Assembly (NCBI RefSeq): GCF_000746095.1
Contig: NZ_JQKP01000002.1
Location: 310,001 to 374,000, forward strand
Length of the DNA stretch: 64,000 nt
Direction of reading: 5' to 3'
Source: Ferriphaselus sp. R-1
GTDB lineage: Bacteria; Pseudomonadota; Gammaproteobacteria; Burkholderiales; Gallionellaceae
Shown piece by piece: positions 8,581 through 52,970 of the stretch. The translations under genes and the position numbers were made by a program. Position 1 is the first letter of the stretch. Each line of letters starts with the position of its first letter. The notes beneath the pieces were generated by a model. That model ran no database searches, was not told where the DNA came from, and saw only the letters and a list, made by a program, of their open reading frames with translations.

Positions 8581-8667
8581 AGTCGCCAGTCGCCAGTCGC
8601 CAGACGTAAGACGTAAGACGTAAGACGTAAGTTTAACCACGGAGCGGGGTAACTTACGTCTTACGTC
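8581..8667. repeat. Two 7-bp tandem arrays and an inverted copy upstream of ubiD
   Basis: AGTCGCC occurs three times in tandem (8581-8601) and then ACGTAAG four times (8604-8631). After a 21-nt spacer, CTTACGT occurs twice in reverse orientation (8653-8666). The last 16 nt of the array and 8653-8668 can form a hairpin of about 15-16 bp. It lies just before the ubiD ribosome site on the minus strand, between ubiD and the acyltransferase pair, and has no coding capacity of its own. Confidence 0.85.
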
Positions 8668-8681
8668 TCACGACTACCCAC

Positions 8682-9551
8682 TCAATAAAAACTCTCCGTC
8701 CCCTCGGGGCGCGTCTTGAACCGCTTGTGCAGCCAGAAGTACTGCTCGGGCATCTCAAGCACGCGTTGCTCGATGAACTCGTTCATACGGCGGGCATCTG
8801 CGATGTCGTCACCGCTCGGGAAGTTTTCCCATGCCGGATAGAAAGTCAGCACATAACCTGCCCCCCCGGGCAGCATGCGCGTGATGCTGGGCACAATCTT
8901 CGCGCCCGTCATTTTGGCGATGCGCGGTACAGAGGTCATGGTGGCGGCAGGCACCCCGAAGAACGGGATAAACGCGCCATCGCGCACGCCTTGGTCCTGG
9001 TCGGGCGGATAGATGAACGGCATGCTTTCCTTCATTCCCTTGATGATAGGGCGCAGCCCTTCCTGACGTGCATACAGACGCTGATTTCGAAAGCGGCAGC
9101 GCTTGCGTAGCAACAGATCTGAGAGATACAAGTTTTTCTGTTTGGAGTACATGCATACGGTATCCACCTGCTGTGCGATCCATTGCCCACCAGCATCCAT
9201 AGCCACGAAATGCGGTGTCAGCAAGATCATAGGCTGCCCTTTTACCGCATCGAAATGCTCCAGACCTTCAACATGGATGAGCGAGTTGATGCGTTCGGCA
9301 CTGGCCCACCAGAGCAGACTGCGTTCGATCAGGCCGCGCATGAACATCCTGAAATGTGCGCGCAACAGTTTTTTTCGTGCGGCCACGTCCATGGCCGGGA
9401 AGCACAAGCGTAGATTGGTATCACCCACCCGTCGCCGCTCCGCAGCAAAGGGATAGACCACGGTGCCGAGTACATTGCCCAGAATGACGATGAGGCGGAA
9501 CGGCAGGAAATGGATCAGCCAGAAGATGAAGACTCCGAAACGTGCCAGCAT
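8682..9551 (-). CDS. LpxL/HtrB-family lysophospholipid acyltransferase (copy 1)
   Basis: Inner-membrane acyltransferase of the lipid A late-acyltransferase family, which adds a secondary fatty acyl chain to lipid A or a related glycolipid. The 289-aa protein has one N-terminal membrane segment (ARFGVFIFWLIHFLPF) and the catalytic H-x4-D motif in TPHFVAMD. Typical downstream blocks are YPPDQDQGVRDGAFIPFFG and PSITRM. I use the ATG at 9551, which overlaps the stop of the neighbouring paralogue as TGATG; a longer upstream reading lacks family similarity. It is a tandem, diverged paralogue of the next gene. The exact acceptor and chain are unknown. Confidence 0.88.
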   Translation of the reverse strand: MLARFGVFIFWLIHFLPFRLIVILGNVLGTVVYPFAAERRRVGDTNLRLCFPAMDVAARKKLLRAHFRMFMRGLIERSLLWWASAERINSLIHVEGLEHFDAVKGQPMILLTPHFVAMDAGGQWIAQQVDTVCMYSKQKNLYLSDLLLRKRCRFRNQRLYARQEGLRPIIKGMKESMPFIYPPDQDQGVRDGAFIPFFGVPAATMTSVPRIAKMTGAKIVPSITRMLPGGAGYVLTFYPAWENFPSGDDIADARRMNEFIEQRVLEMPEQYFWLHKRFKTRPEGTESFY

Positions 9552-14578: not shown

Positions 14579-16027
14579 ATGAAAGCTCCCGAACTCCTCC
14601 TGCCCGCCGGTACGCTGGACAAAATGCGCACCGCCTACGCCTTTGGTGCGGACGCGGTGTATGCCGGGCAACCGCGCTACTCACTGCGCGCGCGCAATAA
14701 CGAATTCAAGCTGGAGGAGCTGCGCACTGGCATCCAGGAGGCGCATGCGCTGGGCAAGAAGCTGTTCGTCGCCAGCAATCTGATGCCGCACAACGCCAAG
14801 GTAAAGACCTACATGGCGGACATGCAGCCGGTGATCGAGATGCAGCCGGATGCGCTCATCATGGCCGACCCCGGCCTGATCGCCATGGTGCGGGAGCGCT
14901 GGCCGGAGCAGGAGATCCACCTCTCCGTGCAGGCCAACACCGTCAACTACGCGGCGGTGAAGTTCTGGAAATCGCTCGGCCTGTCGCGGGTGATTTTGTC
15001 GCGTGAACTGTCGTTGGATGAGATCGAAGAGATACGCCAGCTGTGTCCCGACATCGAACTGGAAGTGTTCGTGCACGGTGCGCTGTGTATCGCCTACTCG
15101 GGACGTTGTCTGCTTTCCGGCTACTTCAACCATCGCGATGCGAATCAAGGCACGTGCACCAATTCCTGCCGCTGGGATTACAAGATCGATAACGCCGAGG
15201 AAAATGGCACGGGTGATATTGAAAAACACCCTCTCTCCAACTCTCTCCCACAAGTGGGAGAGAGAGCGAACGTTCCCTCTCCCGCTAGCGGGAGAGGGCT
15301 AGGGAGAGGGTTGGCTGAAGACAGCCAACCTGAAAGACTAGACTTCGATTTCGACAAGGCACTCAGTCAAAGTGCGCTGTCCGATTGCGGCAGCCAGCCG
15401 CGTCATCCACTGGCCGACCGCGTGTATGTCATCTCGCGCCAGGATCATCCCGGCGAGCTGATGCCGGTGCTGGAAGACGAGCACGGCACTTACATCATGA
15501 ACTCCAAGGACCTGCGCGCCGTGGAACACGTCGAGCGTCTGGTGAAGATCGGTGTGGATTCGCTCAAGGTGGAAGGCCGCACCAAGTCCATCTATTACGT
15601 CGCCCGCACCGCACAAGTCTATCGTCAAGCCATTGATGACGCGGTGGCCGGTCGCCCGTTCAACCTGCAACTGCTGGGCGCGCTGGATGCGCTGGCGAAT
15701 CGCGGCTACACCGACGGTTTCTACGAACGTCACCACACCCACGAGCAGCAGAACTATATGCGCGGCCACTCCGAGAGCTTCCGTCAGCAATACGTCGGCG
15801 ATATCGTGAGCTGTGCCGACGGCATGGCTGAGATCGAGGTGAAGAACAAGTTCTCGGTCGGTGACAAGCTGGAGATCATTCACCCCGCTGGCAATCACAT
15901 CGTGGACGTGACCGAGATGCGCAGTCTCGAAGGTGCGGCCATGAGCGTCGCTCCCGGCAGCGGCCACCGCGTGCAGATCCCGTTGCAAGGCGAATTGGCC
16001 AAGGGCATGGTGGCGCGCTTCCTGTAA
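14579..16027 (+). CDS. trhP: Peptidase U32-family tRNA hydroxylation protein (TrhP/YegQ-like)
   Basis: Member of the U32 group. The E. coli homologue YegQ (TrhP) takes part in prephenate-dependent 5-hydroxylation of uridine 34 in tRNA. The 482-aa protein has ELLLPAGTLDKMRTAYAFGADAVYAG at the N-terminus (split motif), the cysteine region GRCLLSGYFNHRDANQGTCTNSC, HGTYIMNSKDLRAVEHVERL and EGRTKSIYYVARTAQVYR. Residues from about 217 to 246 are not family sequence: they are an in-frame two-hairpin repeat element. The protein is therefore about 30 aa longer than the E. coli one. No stop or frameshift results. The gene starts one base after metF. Confidence 0.9.
   Translation: MKAPELLLPAGTLDKMRTAYAFGADAVYAGQPRYSLRARNNEFKLEELRTGIQEAHALGKKLFVASNLMPHNAKVKTYMADMQPVIEMQPDALIMADPGLIAMVRERWPEQEIHLSVQANTVNYAAVKFWKSLGLSRVILSRELSLDEIEEIRQLCPDIELEVFVHGALCIAYSGRCLLSGYFNHRDANQGTCTNSCRWDYKIDNAEENGTGDIEKHPLSNSLPQVGERANVPSPASGRGLGRGLAEDSQPERLDFDFDKALSQSALSDCGSQPRHPLADRVYVISRQDHPGELMPVLEDEHGTYIMNSKDLRAVEHVERLVKIGVDSLKVEGRTKSIYYVARTAQVYRQAIDDAVAGRPFNLQLLGALDALANRGYTDGFYERHHTHEQQNYMRGHSESFRQQYVGDIVSCADGMAEIEVKNKFSVGDKLEIIHPAGNHIVDVTEMRSLEGAAMSVAPGSGHRVQIPLQGELAKGMVARFL
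15228..15313 (+). repeat. Two-hairpin palindromic element, in-frame within trhP
   Basis: Hairpin 1 pairs CTCTCTCCCAC with GTGGGAGAGAGAG (15241-15266). The linker is CGAACGT. Hairpin 2 pairs CCCTCTCCCGC with GCGGGAGAGGG (15274-15297), followed by a tail AGGGAGAGGGTTGG. It adds about 30 residues to TrhP without a stop. The same layout and reading frame occur in murC, with similar elements in mfd and at 18556-18646. Confidence 0.85.
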
Positions 16028-18555: not shown

Positions 18556-18646
18556 ATCCCCTCCCCCTTGAGGGGGAGGGCCAGGAAGAGGGTGCTGCGC
18601 GCCTAGCCTCTTCCCTGCCCCTCTCCCATTCAATGGGAGAGGGGAT
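18556..18646. repeat. Two-hairpin palindromic element between DUF971 and ubiE
   Basis: A 91-bp element with terminal inverted repeats TATCCCCTC / GAGGGGATA. Hairpin 1 is CCCTCCCCCTTGAGGGGGAGGG and hairpin 2 is CCCCTCTCCCATT / AATGGGAGAGGGG. It is the intergenic relative of the elements in trhP, mfd and murC, and starts 6 nt after the DUF971 stop on the minus strand. Confidence 0.8.
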
Positions 18647-19105: not shown

Positions 19106-22100
19106 ATGCTGTTCGATTCCACCCATTCCCGTCCCCGCTACGCCAACCTGCACGGTTCGTCTGATGCCTTGGCGCTGGCGCAACTCGCCCGGCAGAAATC
19201 CCCGCTGGTGATCCTGACGGCGGACGCGCGCGAGGCGCAGCGGCTGGTGGAAGAGCTGCCCTACTTCGATCCTGAGCTGCGCGTGCACCTGCTGCCTGAC
19301 TGGGAGACGCTGCCTTACGACCATTTCTCGCCGCATCAGGATCTGGTCTCCGAGCGGCTGGCGACGCTGCACCATATCCGCACCGGGATGTGCGACGTGA
19401 TCATCGTGCCGGTGACCACCGCGCTCTACCCGCTGCCGCCGGTGAGTTACATGGCGGCGTACACCTTTTTCATGAACAAGGGCGAGCGGCTGGTGCTAGA
19501 CACTTTCCGTGCGCAAATGACGCTGGCAGGCTACACCCACGTGCAGCAGGTGCTCACCCCCGGCGAGTATTGCGTGCGCGGCGGGCTGATCGACCTGTTC
19601 CCCATGGGCAGCCCGGTGCCGTATCGCATCGACCTGTTCGACGACGAGATCGAGACCATCGCCACCTTCGACGTGGACACGCAGCGCACCATCTATCCGG
19701 TGCCGGACATCCGCCTGTTGCCCGCCCGCGAATTTCCGCTGGATGAGGCCGGACAGGCGCGCTTCCGCCAGAATTTCCGCGAACGCTTCGAGGGCGATCC
19801 GTCCAAGGCCAGCATCTACAAGGATGTGAGCAAGGGCATCGCCCCGGCGGGCATCGAGTACTACCTGCCGCTGTTCTTCGGCGAGACCGCCACCTTGTTC
19901 GACTACCTGCCGCCGGCGGCCACGCTGTGCCTGCACCACGCCGTGAACGAGGCCGTCACCGAGTTCGGCAAGGATGCCGCCAGCCGTTACAAGCTGCTGC
20001 GCGGCGATCCGCAGCGCCCGCTGCTGGAGCCGAAAGAGCTGTTCATGGATGGCGAGCAGTTTTTTGGACGGGTCAAGGAATTTGGGCGGGTAGATGTGCT
20101 TGCCGCTGGGGTGCCCTCACCCCAGCCCTCTCCCGAGGGGAGAGGGGGTTCTGATTCCCCTCGCCCTCCGGGAGAGGGGTTAGGGGAGAGGGAAGTACCC
20201 CAAACCTCCACTCCGTGCCCCACCGCCCCCATTCCGCCCATCGCCGTGGACCGCAAGGCGGAGGTGCCGGTGCTGGCGTTCCAGTCCTTCATCCAGCGCC
20301 ACGATGGGCGCGTGCTGTTGCTGGCGGAGTCGCTGGGGCGGCGCGAGATCATGGCGGGCTACCTGCGCGAGTACGGGCTGACGCCGGAGACGTGTGAGAG
20401 TTACGCCGACTTCAAGCAAGGCAAAGCGTCGTTCATGCTGGGGGTCGGCCCCTTGCAGCGCGGTTTCATCCTGCCCGACGAGCACTGTGCCATCGTCACC
20501 GAGACCGAGCTGTATGCCACGCAGCCCAAGAGCCGCAGCGCGCGCGGTGCCAAGAAGAGCAGCGTCGAAGGCATGTTGCGCGACCTGTCCGAACTTAAGC
20601 CGGGCGACGCGGTGGTGCATGAACAGCACGGCATCGGGCGTTATCAAGGGCTGATCACGCTGGATCTGGGCGAGGGCGACAACGAGTTTCTGCTGTTGCA
20701 GTATGCGAGCGAGGACAAGCTCTACGTGCCGGTGTCGCAACTGCACGTCATCAGCCGTTACAGCGGCGGCGCGGCGGAAGATGCGCCTTTGCACAAGCTG
20801 GGCAGCGGGGCGTGGGACAAGGCCAAGCGTCGCGCCATGCAGCAGGTGCGCGACACCGCCGCCGAGCTGCTCAACCTCTATGCCCAGCGCGCCACGCGGA
20901 AGGGACATGCCTTCAAGCTGACATATCACGACTACGAGGCCTTCGCCGCTGGGTTCGGTTTCGAGGAGACCGCCGATCAGGCTGCCGCCATCGAGGCCGT
21001 CATCCTCGATCTGCAGTCGGGCAAGCCGATGGATAGGCTGATCTGCGGCGATGTGGGTTTCGGCAAGACCGAGGTGGCTTTGCGCGCCGCCTTCATCGCT
21101 GCGATGGAAGGCAAGCAGGTGGCGGTGTTGGCCCCCACTACGCTGCTGGTCGAGCAGCATTACCAGAACTTCTCCACCCGCTTTGCCGATTTCCCGGTGC
21201 GGTTGACCGAGCTGTCGCGTTTCCGCTCCACCAAGGAATCCGCGCAGGCGTTGCAAGAGCTGTCTGAGGGCAAGGTGGACATCGTGATCGGTACCCACAA
21301 GCTGATTCAGAAGGACATCAAGTTCGCCAACCTCGGCCTCGTCATCATCGACGAAGAGCACCGCTTCGGCGTGCAGCAGAAGGAGCGGCTCAAGGCGCTA
21401 CGCGCCGAGGTGGACGTGCTGACGCTGACCGCCACGCCCATCCCGCGCACGCTGGCGATGTCGCTGGAAGGGCTGCGCGACTTTTCGGTGATCGCCACCG
21501 CGCCGCAGCGCCGTTTGTCGATCAAAACCTTCGTCAGCCAATACAGCCAGGGCGTGATCCGCGAAGCCGTGCTGCGCGAACTCAAGCGCGGCGGCCAGGT
21601 GTACTTCTTGCACAACGAGGTGGACACCATGCCCAACATGCTGGAAAAGCTCACCAGCCTGTTGCCCGAGGCGCGCATCCGCATGGCGCACGGTCAGATG
21701 GGCGAGCGCGAACTGGAAGCGGTGATGCGCGACTTCACTCACCAGCGCTTCAATGTGCTGCTGTGCTCAACCATCATCGAGACCGGCATCGACGTGCCGT
21801 CCGCCAACACCATTATCATGAACCGCGCCGACCGCTTCGGCCTGGCGCAGCTACACCAGTTGCGTGGCCGCGTCGGTCGCTCGCACCATCAGGCCTACGC
21901 TTATCTGCTGGTCGATAGTCTGGAGGGCTTGACCGCCCAGGCCAAGAAGCGCCTCGAAGCGATCCAGGCGATGGAGCAGCTGGGCAGCGGCTTCTACCTC
22001 GCCATGCACGATCTGGAGATACGCGGCGCGGGCGAAGTGTTGGGCGAATCGCAGAGCGGCGAGATGCAGGAGATCGGTTTCGCCCTCTACACCGACATGC

Positions 22101-22594
22101 TCAACGCCGCCATCACCTCGCTGCGCCAGGGACACGAGCCGGACATGGCGCATCCGCTGGGCGTGACCACCGAGATCAATCTGCACACCCCGGCGTTGTT
22201 GCCCAACGACTATTGCGGCGACATCCACCAGCGCCTGGTGCTGTACAAACGGCTGGCCAGTTGTACTGATCTGAGCGAGCTGGAAGCGTTGCAAGCCGAA
22301 CTGATCGACCGCTTCGGCCTGCTGCCGGAGGCCGCCGAGGCACTGCTGCTGTGCCACCAGCTGCGCATCGCCGCGAAACCGTTGGGCATCGCCAAGCTGG
22401 ATGCTTCGACCGAAGCCATCCAGGTGCAGTTCGTGCCGAACCCGCCCATCGACCCGATGAAGATCATCAAGCTGATCCAGACCAAACGGCACTACAAACT
22501 GGTGGGGCAAGACAAGCTGCGTATCGAGCTGAAATACCACGACCTCACGCAGCGCGTGCTGGCGATCGGGAACTTCCTTGGGGAGCTGGGTTAG
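19106..22594 (+). CDS. mfd: Transcription-repair coupling factor
   Basis: ATP-dependent translocase that removes RNA polymerase stalled at DNA damage and recruits UvrA. It is 1162 aa from the ATG at 19106. The N-terminal UvrB-like part contains HLLPDWETLPYD. The polymerase-interaction domain has AVVHEQHGIGRYQGL. The helicase core has Walker A CGDVGFGKTE (about 646) and DEEHRFGVQQKE (about 748). The TRG region ETGIDVPSANT and the C-terminal UvrA-binding domain follow. Residues about 336-364 are an in-frame repeat element in the linker between the UvrB-like part and the rest. The reading frame is intact. Confidence 0.95.
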   Translation: MLFDSTHSRPRYANLHGSSDALALAQLARQKSPLVILTADAREAQRLVEELPYFDPELRVHLLPDWETLPYDHFSPHQDLVSERLATLHHIRTGMCDVIIVPVTTALYPLPPVSYMAAYTFFMNKGERLVLDTFRAQMTLAGYTHVQQVLTPGEYCVRGGLIDLFPMGSPVPYRIDLFDDEIETIATFDVDTQRTIYPVPDIRLLPAREFPLDEAGQARFRQNFRERFEGDPSKASIYKDVSKGIAPAGIEYYLPLFFGETATLFDYLPPAATLCLHHAVNEAVTEFGKDAASRYKLLRGDPQRPLLEPKELFMDGEQFFGRVKEFGRVDVLAAGVPSPQPSPEGRGGSDSPRPPGEGLGEREVPQTSTPCPTAPIPPIAVDRKAEVPVLAFQSFIQRHDGRVLLLAESLGRREIMAGYLREYGLTPETCESYADFKQGKASFMLGVGPLQRGFILPDEHCAIVTETELYATQPKSRSARGAKKSSVEGMLRDLSELKPGDAVVHEQHGIGRYQGLITLDLGEGDNEFLLLQYASEDKLYVPVSQLHVISRYSGGAAEDAPLHKLGSGAWDKAKRRAMQQVRDTAAELLNLYAQRATRKGHAFKLTYHDYEAFAAGFGFEETADQAAAIEAVILDLQSGKPMDRLICGDVGFGKTEVALRAAFIAAMEGKQVAVLAPTTLLVEQHYQNFSTRFADFPVRLTELSRFRSTKESAQALQELSEGKVDIVIGTHKLIQKDIKFANLGLVIIDEEHRFGVQQKERLKALRAEVDVLTLTATPIPRTLAMSLEGLRDFSVIATAPQRRLSIKTFVSQYSQGVIREAVLRELKRGGQVYFLHNEVDTMPNMLEKLTSLLPEARIRMAHGQMGERELEAVMRDFTHQRFNVLLCSTIIETGIDVPSANTIIMNRADRFGLAQLHQLRGRVGRSHHQAYAYLLVDSLEGLTAQAKKRLEAIQAMEQLGSGFYLAMHDLEIRGAGEVLGESQSGEMQEIGFALYTDMLNAAITSLRQGHEPDMAHPLGVTTEINLHTPALLPNDYCGDIHQRLVLYKRLASCTDLSELEALQAELIDRFGLLPEAAEALLLCHQLRIAAKPLGIAKLDASTEAIQVQFVPNPPIDPMKIIKLIQTKRHYKLVGQDKLRIELKYHDLTQRVLAIGNFLGELG
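20112..20192 (+). repeat. Two-hairpin palindromic element, in-frame within mfd
   Basis: Hairpin 1 is CCCTCTCCC / GGGGAGAGGG (20127-20147). Hairpin 2 is CCCCTCGCCCTCCGGGAGAGGGG (20157-20179). A tail TTAGGGGAGAGGG matches the tails in trhP and murC. It encodes a Pro/Gly/Glu-rich segment with no stop, in a different codon phase from the trhP and murC copies. Confidence 0.82.
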
Positions 22595-50581: not shown

Positions 50582-51507
50582 TGCTTCTCTCCGATGATGC
50601 GTATTTCCGGATGCAAATGGATGCCGGTCCTGGCCGCCACTTCCGCTTGCACCCGCTCTATCAATCCTTCGATGTCAGCCGCTGTCGCCCCGCCGGTGTT
50701 GACGATGAAGTTGGCGTGCTTCTGCGACACCTCAGCGCCGCCGATCTTGCAGCCCTTCAGCCCGCAAGACTCGATCAGCCGTGCGGCGTGGTCGCCTGCC
50801 GGGTTGCGGAACACCGATCCAGCGTTGGGCGTGCCTATGGGCTGGCTGGCGACGCGCTTTTCCAGCAGCGTTTTGATCGCCAGCCGCGAGGCCGCGCCGT
50901 CGCCGGATTCAAACTTCAGCCAGACGCCGACGAACAGCTCGTCGGTCGGCAGCGGGAACGGTTCGCCGTCGTCATCACGCCGCTGCACGCTGCGATAGCC
51001 GATGGCGTAATCCGCCGGTGTGCGCTCGACCAGTTCGCCCGCGCGGGTCAGCACCTGCACGCGCGCCACCTTGTCCCAGATCTCACTGCCGTAGCAGCCA
51101 GCGTTCATTGCCAGCATCCCGCCGACAGTGCCGGGAATGCCCGCGCAGAATTCCGCGCCGATCAAATCGTGGGTGGCGGCAAAGCGCGCCAGCTTCGCGC
51201 CCGGCACACCCGCTTGTGCATACAGCAAGCCATCCGCTTCCTGATGCAACTCGGTCAGCGCGCCGTGGGTCAGCAGCAGGGTGCCGCGCAGACCGCCGTC
51301 GCGCACCAGCAGATTGCTGCCCAGCCCCACCGTCAGCAGCGGCTCGTCTTGCGGCAAGGTGCGCAGGAACAGCGCCAGATCGGCCAAGTCCACCGCCTGA
51401 TACATCCGCGCCACCCGGCCACCCGCGCGCCAGCTCACATGGCGGCTCATGTCCACGTCCAGGCTGAGTTCGCCGCGCAAGAAGTTGGTGGGTTCGCTCA
51501 TGTTCAT
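50578..51507 (-). CDS. murB: UDP-N-acetylenolpyruvoylglucosamine reductase
   Basis: FAD enzyme that reduces the enolpyruvyl group to form UDP-MurNAc. The 309-aa protein has [65 protein letters not shown] and [14 protein letters not shown], the type I MurB pattern. Its ATG at 51507 overlaps the murC stop (an ATG two codons later is also possible). It overlaps ddl by 4 nt. Confidence 0.96.
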
Positions 51508-52970
51508 TCCGCCCTCGCGACGAGCTTACGAACCTGCGCGGCCACACCGCCGATGGAGCCTGCGCCCATGGTCAGCACCACGTCGCCGGGTTGCGCCAGA
51601 TTGAGGATGGTCTGCGGCATGTCGGCGATCTGCTCGACGAACACGGCTTCCTTGCCCGTCACCCGCAGCGAGCGCATCAGCGCGCGGCCGTCCGCCGCCA
51701 CGATGGGGGCTTCACCGGCGGCATAGACCTCGGCTAGCAACAGCGCGTCCACCGTGCCCAGCACTTTCACAAAATCCTCGAACAGGTCGCGGGTGCGGGT
51801 GTAGCGGTGCGGCTGGAAGGCCAACACCAAGCGCCGACCGGGGAACGCGCCGCGCGCCGCCGCCAGTGTCGCCGCCATCTCGACAGGGTGATGGCCGTAG
51901 TCGTCCAAGAGGGTGAAGGTTCCCTTGCCGCTGGCGGCAAGGACGTTTGCCCCCTCGCCCGCAAGCGGGAGAGGGTTGGGGAGAGGGGCATCCAACACTG
52001 GAATCTCCCCATACCGCTGGAACCGCCGTCCCACGCCCTGGAACTCGGCCAGCCCGGCCACGATGGCCTGTTCGTCCACGCCCACTTCCAGTGCGATGGC
52101 GATGACGGCCAGCGAATTCAGCACGTTGTGATTGCCCGCCAGATTCAGCGTCACTTCCAGATCGATCGGCACGCTGTTGTGGCGGCACAGCGCGGTGTAG
52201 CGCATCTTGCCGCCTTCGTGGCGCACGTTGACGGCGCGAATCTGCGCGTCTTCGCTGAAGCCGTAGGTGGTGTAGGGCTTGCTGATGCGGCCCATGATCT
52301 CACGCACGTTGGGGTCGTCCACGCACAGCATGGCACGACCATAGAACGGCAGGCGCTCCAGGAAATCGACAAAGGTCTGCTTCAGACGATTGAAGTCGTG
52401 ACCGTAGGTTTCCATGTGGTCGGCGTCGATGTTGGTGACCACGGCCAGAATGGGCGAGAGATACAAAAAGGAGGCGTCGGATTCGTCCGCCTCGGCGACC
52501 AGAAACTCGCCGGTGCCCAGCTTGGCGTTGGTGCCGCTGCTGTTCAGCCGCCCGCCGATCACGTAGGTCGGATCGAAACCGCCCTGCGCCAGCACGCTGG
52601 CGGCGAGGCTGGTGGTCGTGGTCTTGCCATGCGTCCCGGCGATGGCGATACCCTGACGCAGCCGCATCAGCTCGGCCAGCATCATGGCGCGCGGCACCAC
52701 GGGAATCTTGCGGGCGCGAGCTTCGACCACTTCCGGGTTGTCGGCCTGCACGGCGGTGGAAGTCACCACCGCGTCGGCGTTGCCCAGATTCTCGGCAGCG
52801 TGACCACGATGGATGGTCGCGCCCAGCGCGGCCAGACGTTGCGTCGCGGCGTTGTCGGCCAAGTCCGAGCCGCTCACCTGAAAACCCAGATTGAGCAGCA
52901 CCTCGGCGATGCCGTTCATCCCCGAGCCGCCGATGCCGACGAAATGCAGCGCTTTGACTTTATGCTTCAT
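51504..52970 (-). CDS. murC: UDP-N-acetylmuramate--L-alanine ligase
   Basis: Adds L-Ala to UDP-MurNAc. The 488-aa protein starts with the UDP-binding [16 protein letters not shown], has the P-loop [10 protein letters not shown] (111-120), and carries [18 protein letters not shown] in the C-terminal domain. Between [16 protein letters not shown] and that motif, residues about 327-350 are a two-hairpin repeat element read in frame. It falls in the linker between the central and C-terminal domains. E. coli MurC has only a short loop there. The ligase motifs are otherwise intact, so the enzyme is presumably active. Confidence 0.96.
51928..51989 (-). repeat. Two-hairpin palindromic element, in-frame within murC
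   Basis: On the minus strand: CCCTCTCCCCAA, hairpin 1 CCCTCTCCCGCTTGCGGGCGAG, linker GCAAACGT, and hairpin 2 CTTGCCGCCAGCGGCAAG. It has the same order, direction and codon phase as the trhP element. Hairpin 2 has a quite different sequence but remains a perfect palindrome. Confidence 0.82.

Follow-up and report, generated by a model that had tools for sequence, protein, structure and literature searches.

A stop-free palindromic insert in trhP of Ferriphaselus sp. R-1 points to a family of in-gene triplex motifs associated with DUF559 nuclease genes

How can a gene coding for a tRNA-modifying enzyme carry several palindromes and remain open, and where do such palindromes come from? The question is raised by trhP of Ferriphaselus sp. 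R-1, a bacterium of the iron-oxidizing family Gallionellaceae. The DNA analysed around it is a stretch of 64,000 nt, called the window below. An earlier note on this DNA had described palindromes of about 86 nt, coding for about 30 residues in an otherwise normal gene, and had taken them to suggest a mobile palindromic family. The features of the locus, in window positions, are the following.

14579-16027, plus strand: trhP, prephenate-dependent tRNA uridine(34) hydroxylase, 482 codons (ORF, NCBIfam NF011996)
15227-15337, plus strand: insert in trhP, 111 nt, 37 codons, stop-free (boundaries from insert-free orthologues)
15229-15264, minus strand: first triplex motif of the insert, diverged (3 substitutions relative to the pattern), second G-strand leftward
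15275-15310, plus strand: second triplex motif of the insert, perfect match to the pattern, second G-strand rightward
15309-15330, plus strand: third hairpin of the insert, 9-bp stem, GGTTGGCTG-AAGA-CAGCCAACC

The observation was confirmed: the trhP frame is intact and open through the palindromes, and its product matches NF011996 with 746.9 bits (cut-off 534), in two stretches. The palindromes lie where the note had put them, but their extent had been underestimated. Measured against 445-aa orthologues without insert, the added segment covers 111 nt between GDIEK and LDFDFDKAL, and 86 nt is too short because the third hairpin and the tail are also part of it. Within it, besides the third hairpin, are the units CCCTCTCTCCAACTCTCTCCCACAAGTGGGAGAGAG and CCCTCTCCCGCTAGCGGGAGAGGGCTAGGGAGAGGG, hairpins in inverted orientation, each with a C-arm, a loop, a G-arm, a linker and a second G-strand. 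Variant forms of the third hairpin are found in the trhP inserts of four other genomes. The folding energy of the insert RNA is -69.6 kcal/mol, compared to -39.6 (sd 4.0) for shuffled sequences (z -7.6). A short loop, a short linker and a strand predicted to be able to form C-G-G triads correspond to the build of a published element, the intrastrand triplex motif (TM). Judged by this build, the insert is made of two TMs plus the third hairpin. In E. coli, Table 1 of Holder et al. 2015 (PMC4666352) gives 23 copies of this motif (TM-ECO), for which the same article reports triplex formation in vitro; its authors state that they never found mobility functions around TM. An Rfam search with the trhP insert returned nothing above threshold, and sub-threshold matches to miRNA hairpins only. 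AlphaFold2 gave a weak model for TrhP (mean pLDDT 67.9; residues 220-310 and other stretches below 50), so that no conclusion was drawn from it, and a sequence search for solved TrhP relatives found none.

Further TMs are present in the window, as follows.

51504-52970, minus strand: murC with in-frame TM (ORF, NCBIfam murC 531.9 bits)
51951-51988, plus strand: TM in murC, read antisense
19106-22594, plus strand: mfd (transcription-repair coupling factor) with an in-frame TM pair
20114-20147, minus strand: TM in mfd, peptide PSPQPSPEGRG
20157-20192, plus strand: TM in mfd, peptide PRPPGEGLGER
18557-18592, plus strand: left member of an intergenic TM pair, diverged
18607-18644, minus strand: right member of this intergenic pair

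The strict TM pattern was found 4 times in the window, against 0 times in 100 first-order Markov windows. The related element that the note had reported in murC is indeed there, and the peptide pattern said to be common to the murC and trhP elements, in the same orientation and phase, was recovered by comparing the murC element with the first trhP unit, the latter judged by eye (PLSNSLPQVGERAN is one of the two peptides). This murC insert is absent from genomes G001 and G039, and near-identical in G002. The mfd pair (20114-20192) is a third in-frame case in the window that had been missed; G001, G002 and G039 all lack it. No ORF of at least 100 aa spans the intergenic pair at 18557-18644. Apart from TMs, a short stretch of tandem and inverted ACGTAAG repeats was seen at window positions 8588-8682.

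The element is far from unique. The strict TM pattern occurs at 41 places in the R-1 genome, and the reversed pattern, taken as a control, at 0. Wholly within ORFs are 27 of these 41 TMs, in 21 genes, as called with a simple coding score plus one assignment by hand (RlmI). The hosts are nifN, a YbbP-like permease, mutS, a FadB-like gene, a cytidylyltransferase, ileS, leuS, a Methyltransf_28 gene, trhP, mfd (2 TMs), murC, mpl, metG (2), valS, cusA (2), a CusB-like gene, rlmI, hrpA (4), EPSP synthase, ubiH and murU. Two more in-gene TMs fall outside the strict pattern, in miaA and in an NAD(P)H-hydrate dehydratase gene, and leuS has two further TM-like stretches, seen by eye. Two congeners were searched, G001 and G002, with 5 and 46 strict TMs respectively. 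For 13 of 18 R-1 segments compared, the insert is clearly absent in G001, which has something at the R-1 sites in nifN, the permease, hrpA and cusA; the tail of the CusB-like gene gave an ambiguous picture. G039, with 0 strict TMs, has no TM at any compared site where sequence was found, and in G002, TM-like stretches occupy the corresponding positions of mutS, rlmI, hrpA, ubiH, murU, leuS, mpl and nifN. Nucleotide alignments of 18 genic sites, which bear on a possible likeness to MITEs of DDE transposons (terminal inverted repeats with a constant target-site duplication), revealed no clean target-site duplication as a general signature; only trhP is suggestive, with GARARACT-like flanks (by eye), and the flanks are diverged at most genic inserts.

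At the scale of the family, 124 of 150 genomes carry at least one strict TM, with a maximum of 224. Genome G051 has 120 copies, for 1 match of the reversed control per strand. In G049, 30 of the 49 TMs were examined and 10 were called in-ORF, among which those in mpl, nifN and a FadB-like gene (named by eye) lie at about the same place as in R-1; an eleventh in-gene case, at 450233, is in HrpA and adjoins DUF559. As a side observation, the genome with 224 TMs, G008, is 1.3 Mb long and 75% complete.

The distribution of the trhP insert itself was then surveyed. A trhP match was found in 122 of the 158 family genomes searched, and 119 of the matches cover the insert site, those of G071, G121 and G195 not reaching it. 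Extra residues at the site are zero in 109 genomes (G044, a partial match 11 residues short, being counted here), 4 in G001, 7 in G133, and a long insert is present in 8 (G000, G027, G134, G135, G142, G157, G185 and G191). The possibility that all orthologues share the segment, which would speak against an insertion, thus did not materialise. The long inserts are of three types, and the frame is kept in all. G135, G157, G185 and G191 have the two-TM insert of R-1 with a form of the third hairpin, G134 and G142 a single TM of another type, and G027 (L138) an unrelated CATTCCCGCG/CGCGGGAATGAC palindrome at the same place, with one TAG elsewhere in its copy of the gene. In G001 the site reads GDIERLPEKLDF, which looks like a deletion scar that has kept both ends of the insert. 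In a trhP gene tree of 53 rows, from which G191 was excluded by the length filter, G001 is the sister of R-1, and the two-TM carriers are in separate clades, beside rows without insert, so that 6 changes are needed for the insert label. We considered a recent horizontal spread of the insert, as these separate clades might suggest, and did not retain it: among the five two-TM carriers, identity is 85-96% in the insert and 79-88% in the flanks, and since the former only partly exceeds the latter, a single old gain followed by many losses would also account for the pattern.

The sequence of TMs offers a simple reason why so many of them can be read through. Their arms are pure C/T, then G/A, and never have a T followed by a purine. 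This means that stop codons can occur in loops and linkers only, and that TM copies are readable in most frames; 13 of the 41 are open in all six. The two arginine-rich frames (LSRKRER type) are used by 1 of the 27 in-gene TMs, for 31% expected from the open frames (binomial P 6e-4). These frames were picked after looking at the data, and a bias could also come from the derivation of the copies from a small number of master elements, so the uneven use amounts to no more than a hint that the peptide is under selection. Inserts of 3n nucleotides that land in permissive loops would be kept and may be translated, within the host protein, as Pro/Gly/Ser-rich linkers, and their loss could leave short in-frame scars.

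What the earlier note had missed, besides the identity with a published TM family and the mostly in-gene location of the R-1 copies, is a tie to DUF559 nuclease genes. In metG of R-1, the region that separates the anticodon-binding domain from the tRNA_bind domain holds a TM-DUF559-TM unit in frame. Pfam PF04480 (DUF559) matches this insert with 124.0 bits, and the C1 copy with 150.8 bits, for a cut-off of 20.6. The same profile gave 218 matches in 104 of the 150 family genomes. TM and DUF559 numbers go together (Spearman rho 0.68 on 150 genomes, a value not corrected for phylogeny or completeness). Exceptions exist in both directions: 3 of the 53 genomes with at least 20 TMs are without a DUF559 match, and 9 of the 26 TM-free genomes have one.

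To describe the surroundings of DUF559, 30 loci retrieved as best matches, 20 hand-chosen ones (18 of them picked for frames of at least 500 aa) and R-1 metG were taken, that is 51 loci, or 50 once a duplicate was removed. A flanking TM had to match the pattern with at most 2 substitutions, point inward, and lie within 330 nt of the DGGQH codon. Such TMs were present on both sides at 34 of the 50 loci, on the left at 39, on the right at 42, on at least one side at 47, and on neither side at 3. The 30 retrieved loci alone gave 19 with both sides and 27 with at least one. In the 34 two-sided elements, the left and right TMs resemble each other (mean edit distance 5.2, versus 8.5 across elements; 0 of 300 shuffles were as low), and the distances between TMs go with those between the DUF559 sequences (Mantel rho 0.55, 0 of 2000). 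The E.DGGQH motif is conserved in these elements, partly by construction because it served to locate the loci.

DUF559 lies in frames of at least 500 aa in 33 cases among the 150 matches listed, of 218. Four hosts were named by Pfam (MetRS, HrpA, MmeI-like and HsdM-like), and the remaining ones were placed by eye in the same four kinds, from their flanking peptides. At site 1 of HrpA, five genomes have a DUF559 unit, R-1 a solo TM, G002 a degenerate TM, and G001, G039 and G145 none; in the MetRS linker, six genomes have the unit. Both sites display a trait of homing-type elements, in that one position of a conserved gene is occupied by a nuclease-coding element in relatives that are scattered, and the recurrence of insertions at matching positions in several genes is compatible with either homing or strong permissiveness. 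The solved structures nearest to DUF559 are the endonuclease-like 3hrl (E 8e-25) and, weakly, the mobile intron protein 3r3p (E 0.037). No self-splicing RNA was detected by Rfam, at the gathering threshold, in loci L300, L372 and L379. For the DUF559 protein of E. coli, YcjD, a PD-(D/E)XK nature and a relationship to Vsr are predicted in PMC1189080, and a Vsr-like DUF559 protein of Caulobacter is tied to DNA damage in PMC12907096. In the openly licensed literature, we found nothing that connects DUF559 with the triplex motif; the connection, if it holds, is new.

Two observations on location can be added. By eye, from their flanks, TM-DUF559-TM units of several family genomes seem to sit at a common ybbA-ybbP-like junction (L345, L346, L352, L355, L356, L357, L360, L362 and L369). 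Units also recur in restriction-modification methyltransferase genes, at L386 (G040), L379 (G166) and L415 (Pseudanabaena galeata), and because of this recurrence some of them are perhaps functional nuclease fusions and not parasites.

The association was also looked for outside Gallionellaceae. A tblastn search with the R-1 DUF559 returned 45 records of the plasmid collection, some of them whole chromosomes, and from the 40 listed, 20 loci picked for variety were fetched. In 12 of these 20 loci, but in none of the other 8, a TM with at most 1 substitution is no farther than 300 nt from DUF559, compared to 3 of 20 in a control zone at 300-900 nt, which is twice as long. Related palindromes are present at three more loci (Qipengyuania, Sphingomonas, Shinella). 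The association of TM and DUF559 thus recurs in other phyla, and in a Pseudanabaena plasmid the unit is in frame in an annotated methylase-like protein of 1,621 aa. The TMs point inward in Gallionellaceae, and outward in Deinococcus aetherius, Pseudanabaena galeata and others, a lineage-dependent orientation that a precise model must explain. The R-1, E. coli and Deinococcus proteins are all members of the DUF559/YcjD family (PF04480); E. coli YcjD scores 167 bits in Pfam, yet E. coli is missing from the control line of the family DUF559 search. With a 701-nt query holding ycjD, 5323 of 5426 E. coli genomes match some of the query and 3360 at least 80% of it. In MG1655, ycjD is unbracketed, with one nearby TM, the published number 9, at 166 nt. 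No DUF559 relative was confirmed in viral contigs, and a phage search for such relatives gave 2 records. For Legionella, PMC12308824 describes recombination hotspots formed by repeated segments that contain a transposase and DUF559, and as DUF559 is next to a transposase there, another enzyme could be the mover.

Taken with the R-1 data, these results lead us to propose that the trhP insert is probably a non-autonomous member of a mobile TM family whose autonomous form is TM-DUF559-TM. The autonomous form would be a gene for a small PD-(D/E)XK (Vsr-like) endonuclease with an inverted TM at each end, the TMs being the ends of the element and the solitary TMs its non-autonomous form. DUF559 would be an active nuclease that recognises TM, its activity being a family prediction (PMC1189080). 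Its substrates would be TM hairpins or empty target sites, a copy would be left behind through repair or gene conversion, and the movement would follow a homing-like repair or a hairpin route. The nuclease ORF may itself sit in frame within the host protein. In its broadest form, to which we give about even chances, TM-DUF559-TM would be a class of mobile elements undescribed so far, homing or transposing in frame into essential genes without splicing, MetRS, HrpA or DNA methyltransferases would contain its nuclease as an internal domain, and bacterial triplex repeats, those of E. coli included, would be non-autonomous or relic copies. The idea of a mobile palindromic family put forward in the earlier note is thus supported, and we infer that the insertions at trhP and elsewhere are mobile.

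The main rival reverses causality: DUF559 genes would be homing-type parasites that settle at TMs by cleaving hairpins, and TMs would spread by other means. Bracketing, co-variation and varying orientation fit this scheme equally well; most TMs of the R-1 genome, paired or single, have no DUF559 with them, and E. coli K-12 has 23 TMs for an unbracketed ycjD. Nevertheless, TM number follows DUF559 number, and the left and right TMs are matched within elements, which a passenger arriving late need not produce. We consider this reading unlikely.

A second explanation dispenses with a dedicated enzyme. TMs would both arise and multiply through replication slippage, template switching or repair events at triplex-forming DNA, those tolerated in loops being kept by selection. 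E. coli TM loci are unstable and undergo partial deletions, as reported in PMC4666352, and the G001 trhP resembles a deletion scar. Slippage and repair, however, leave unexplained that a single gene family is bracketed at a fixed distance across phyla and that TM and DUF559 co-vary, so that we hold this explanation to be rather improbable.

TMs could also be REP-like repeats of the usual kind, with a RAYT/Y1 tyrosine transposase as their mover and DUF559 as a bystander. RAYT genes have REPs at their flanks and some REPs lie within genes (PMC3733652), R-1 has three Y1_Tnp matches, two of them above cut-off, and TM and Y1_Tnp counts are weakly correlated (rho 0.22, p 0.007). Against this, the 5-7.5 kb stretches around the three R-1 matches contain 0 TMs, the nearest TM being in mutS, about 1.7 kb from the second match and just beyond the stretch searched; Y1_Tnp is absent from 6 of the 53 TM-rich genomes and present in 18 of the 26 TM-free ones; and the conserved GTAG/CGTC tag is lacking (GTAG in 3 of 41 copies, in the linker, and CGTC in 0 of 41). 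A RAYT mover of TMs is therefore unsupported by both genome counts and R-1 neighbourhoods, and appears very unlikely.

Finally, that the trhP segment is a natural variable linker of chance low complexity is hardly credible, since although the site is length-variable in other Betaproteobacteria, with three kinds of insert there, the DNA of the insert belongs to a repeat family with 41 copies and zero control matches in the R-1 genome, and a permissive linker at this site accounts for its retention, not its origin.

How does the proposed TM-DUF559-TM element compare with known systems? TMs share with the PIT element a three-block structure, CCCTCNCCC-loop-GGGNGAGGG-linker-GGGNGAGGG, inverted pairs, and many copies in many genomes (Table 1 of PMC4666352, compared by eye). 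They differ in that the E. coli K-12 copies published in that table are always intergenic, whereas 27 of 41 are in reading frames in R-1, and in that TMs bracket DUF559 genes in Gallionellaceae. The Rickettsia palindromic elements (RPE), evoked in the earlier note, are also in-frame palindromes found in many unrelated genes and seemingly tolerated, as are the R-1 inserts, absent from orthologues. The comparison is sound as an analogy of tolerated inserts, but does not extend to family membership: the host lineage is another one, and RPE were set beside TM by description only. Intragenic REPs are single or dimeric palindromes in ORFs, whose dimers or groups code for 20-30 aa, several of them in DNA repair and tRNA-related genes; but they carry a GTAG/CGTC tag and are tied to tyrosine transposases, according to PMC3733652, whereas TMs have no conserved tag and are tied to DUF559. 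Vsr-like/EDxHD homing endonucleases and inteins likewise place a small PD-(D/E)XK-type nuclease at one shared position of conserved genes in species that are scattered, and a weak sequence link to 3r3p exists; the difference is that Rfam finds no self-splicing intron in the loci searched and the host frame simply continues through TM-DUF559.

If our reading holds, a free-living bacterium can house palindromic inserts by the dozen, and complete nuclease domains too, within the reading frames of aminoacyl-tRNA synthetases, mismatch repair and cell-wall enzymes, and the tolerance of proteins for insertions becomes directly testable. DUF559, as a specific and testable partner, would answer the question of how TM spreads. 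For annotators, Pro/Gly-rich inserts of this sort are a warning, being repeat-derived. Lastly, a second family of palindromes, with peptides GTTSHSTKPASGQVAGY and TSDLPACGLSRLAGSS, was noticed by eye nested within TM loops, as a repeat in a repeat, at L051:1000-2565 (nifN C-terminus), L372 (HrpA) and L024 (murU).
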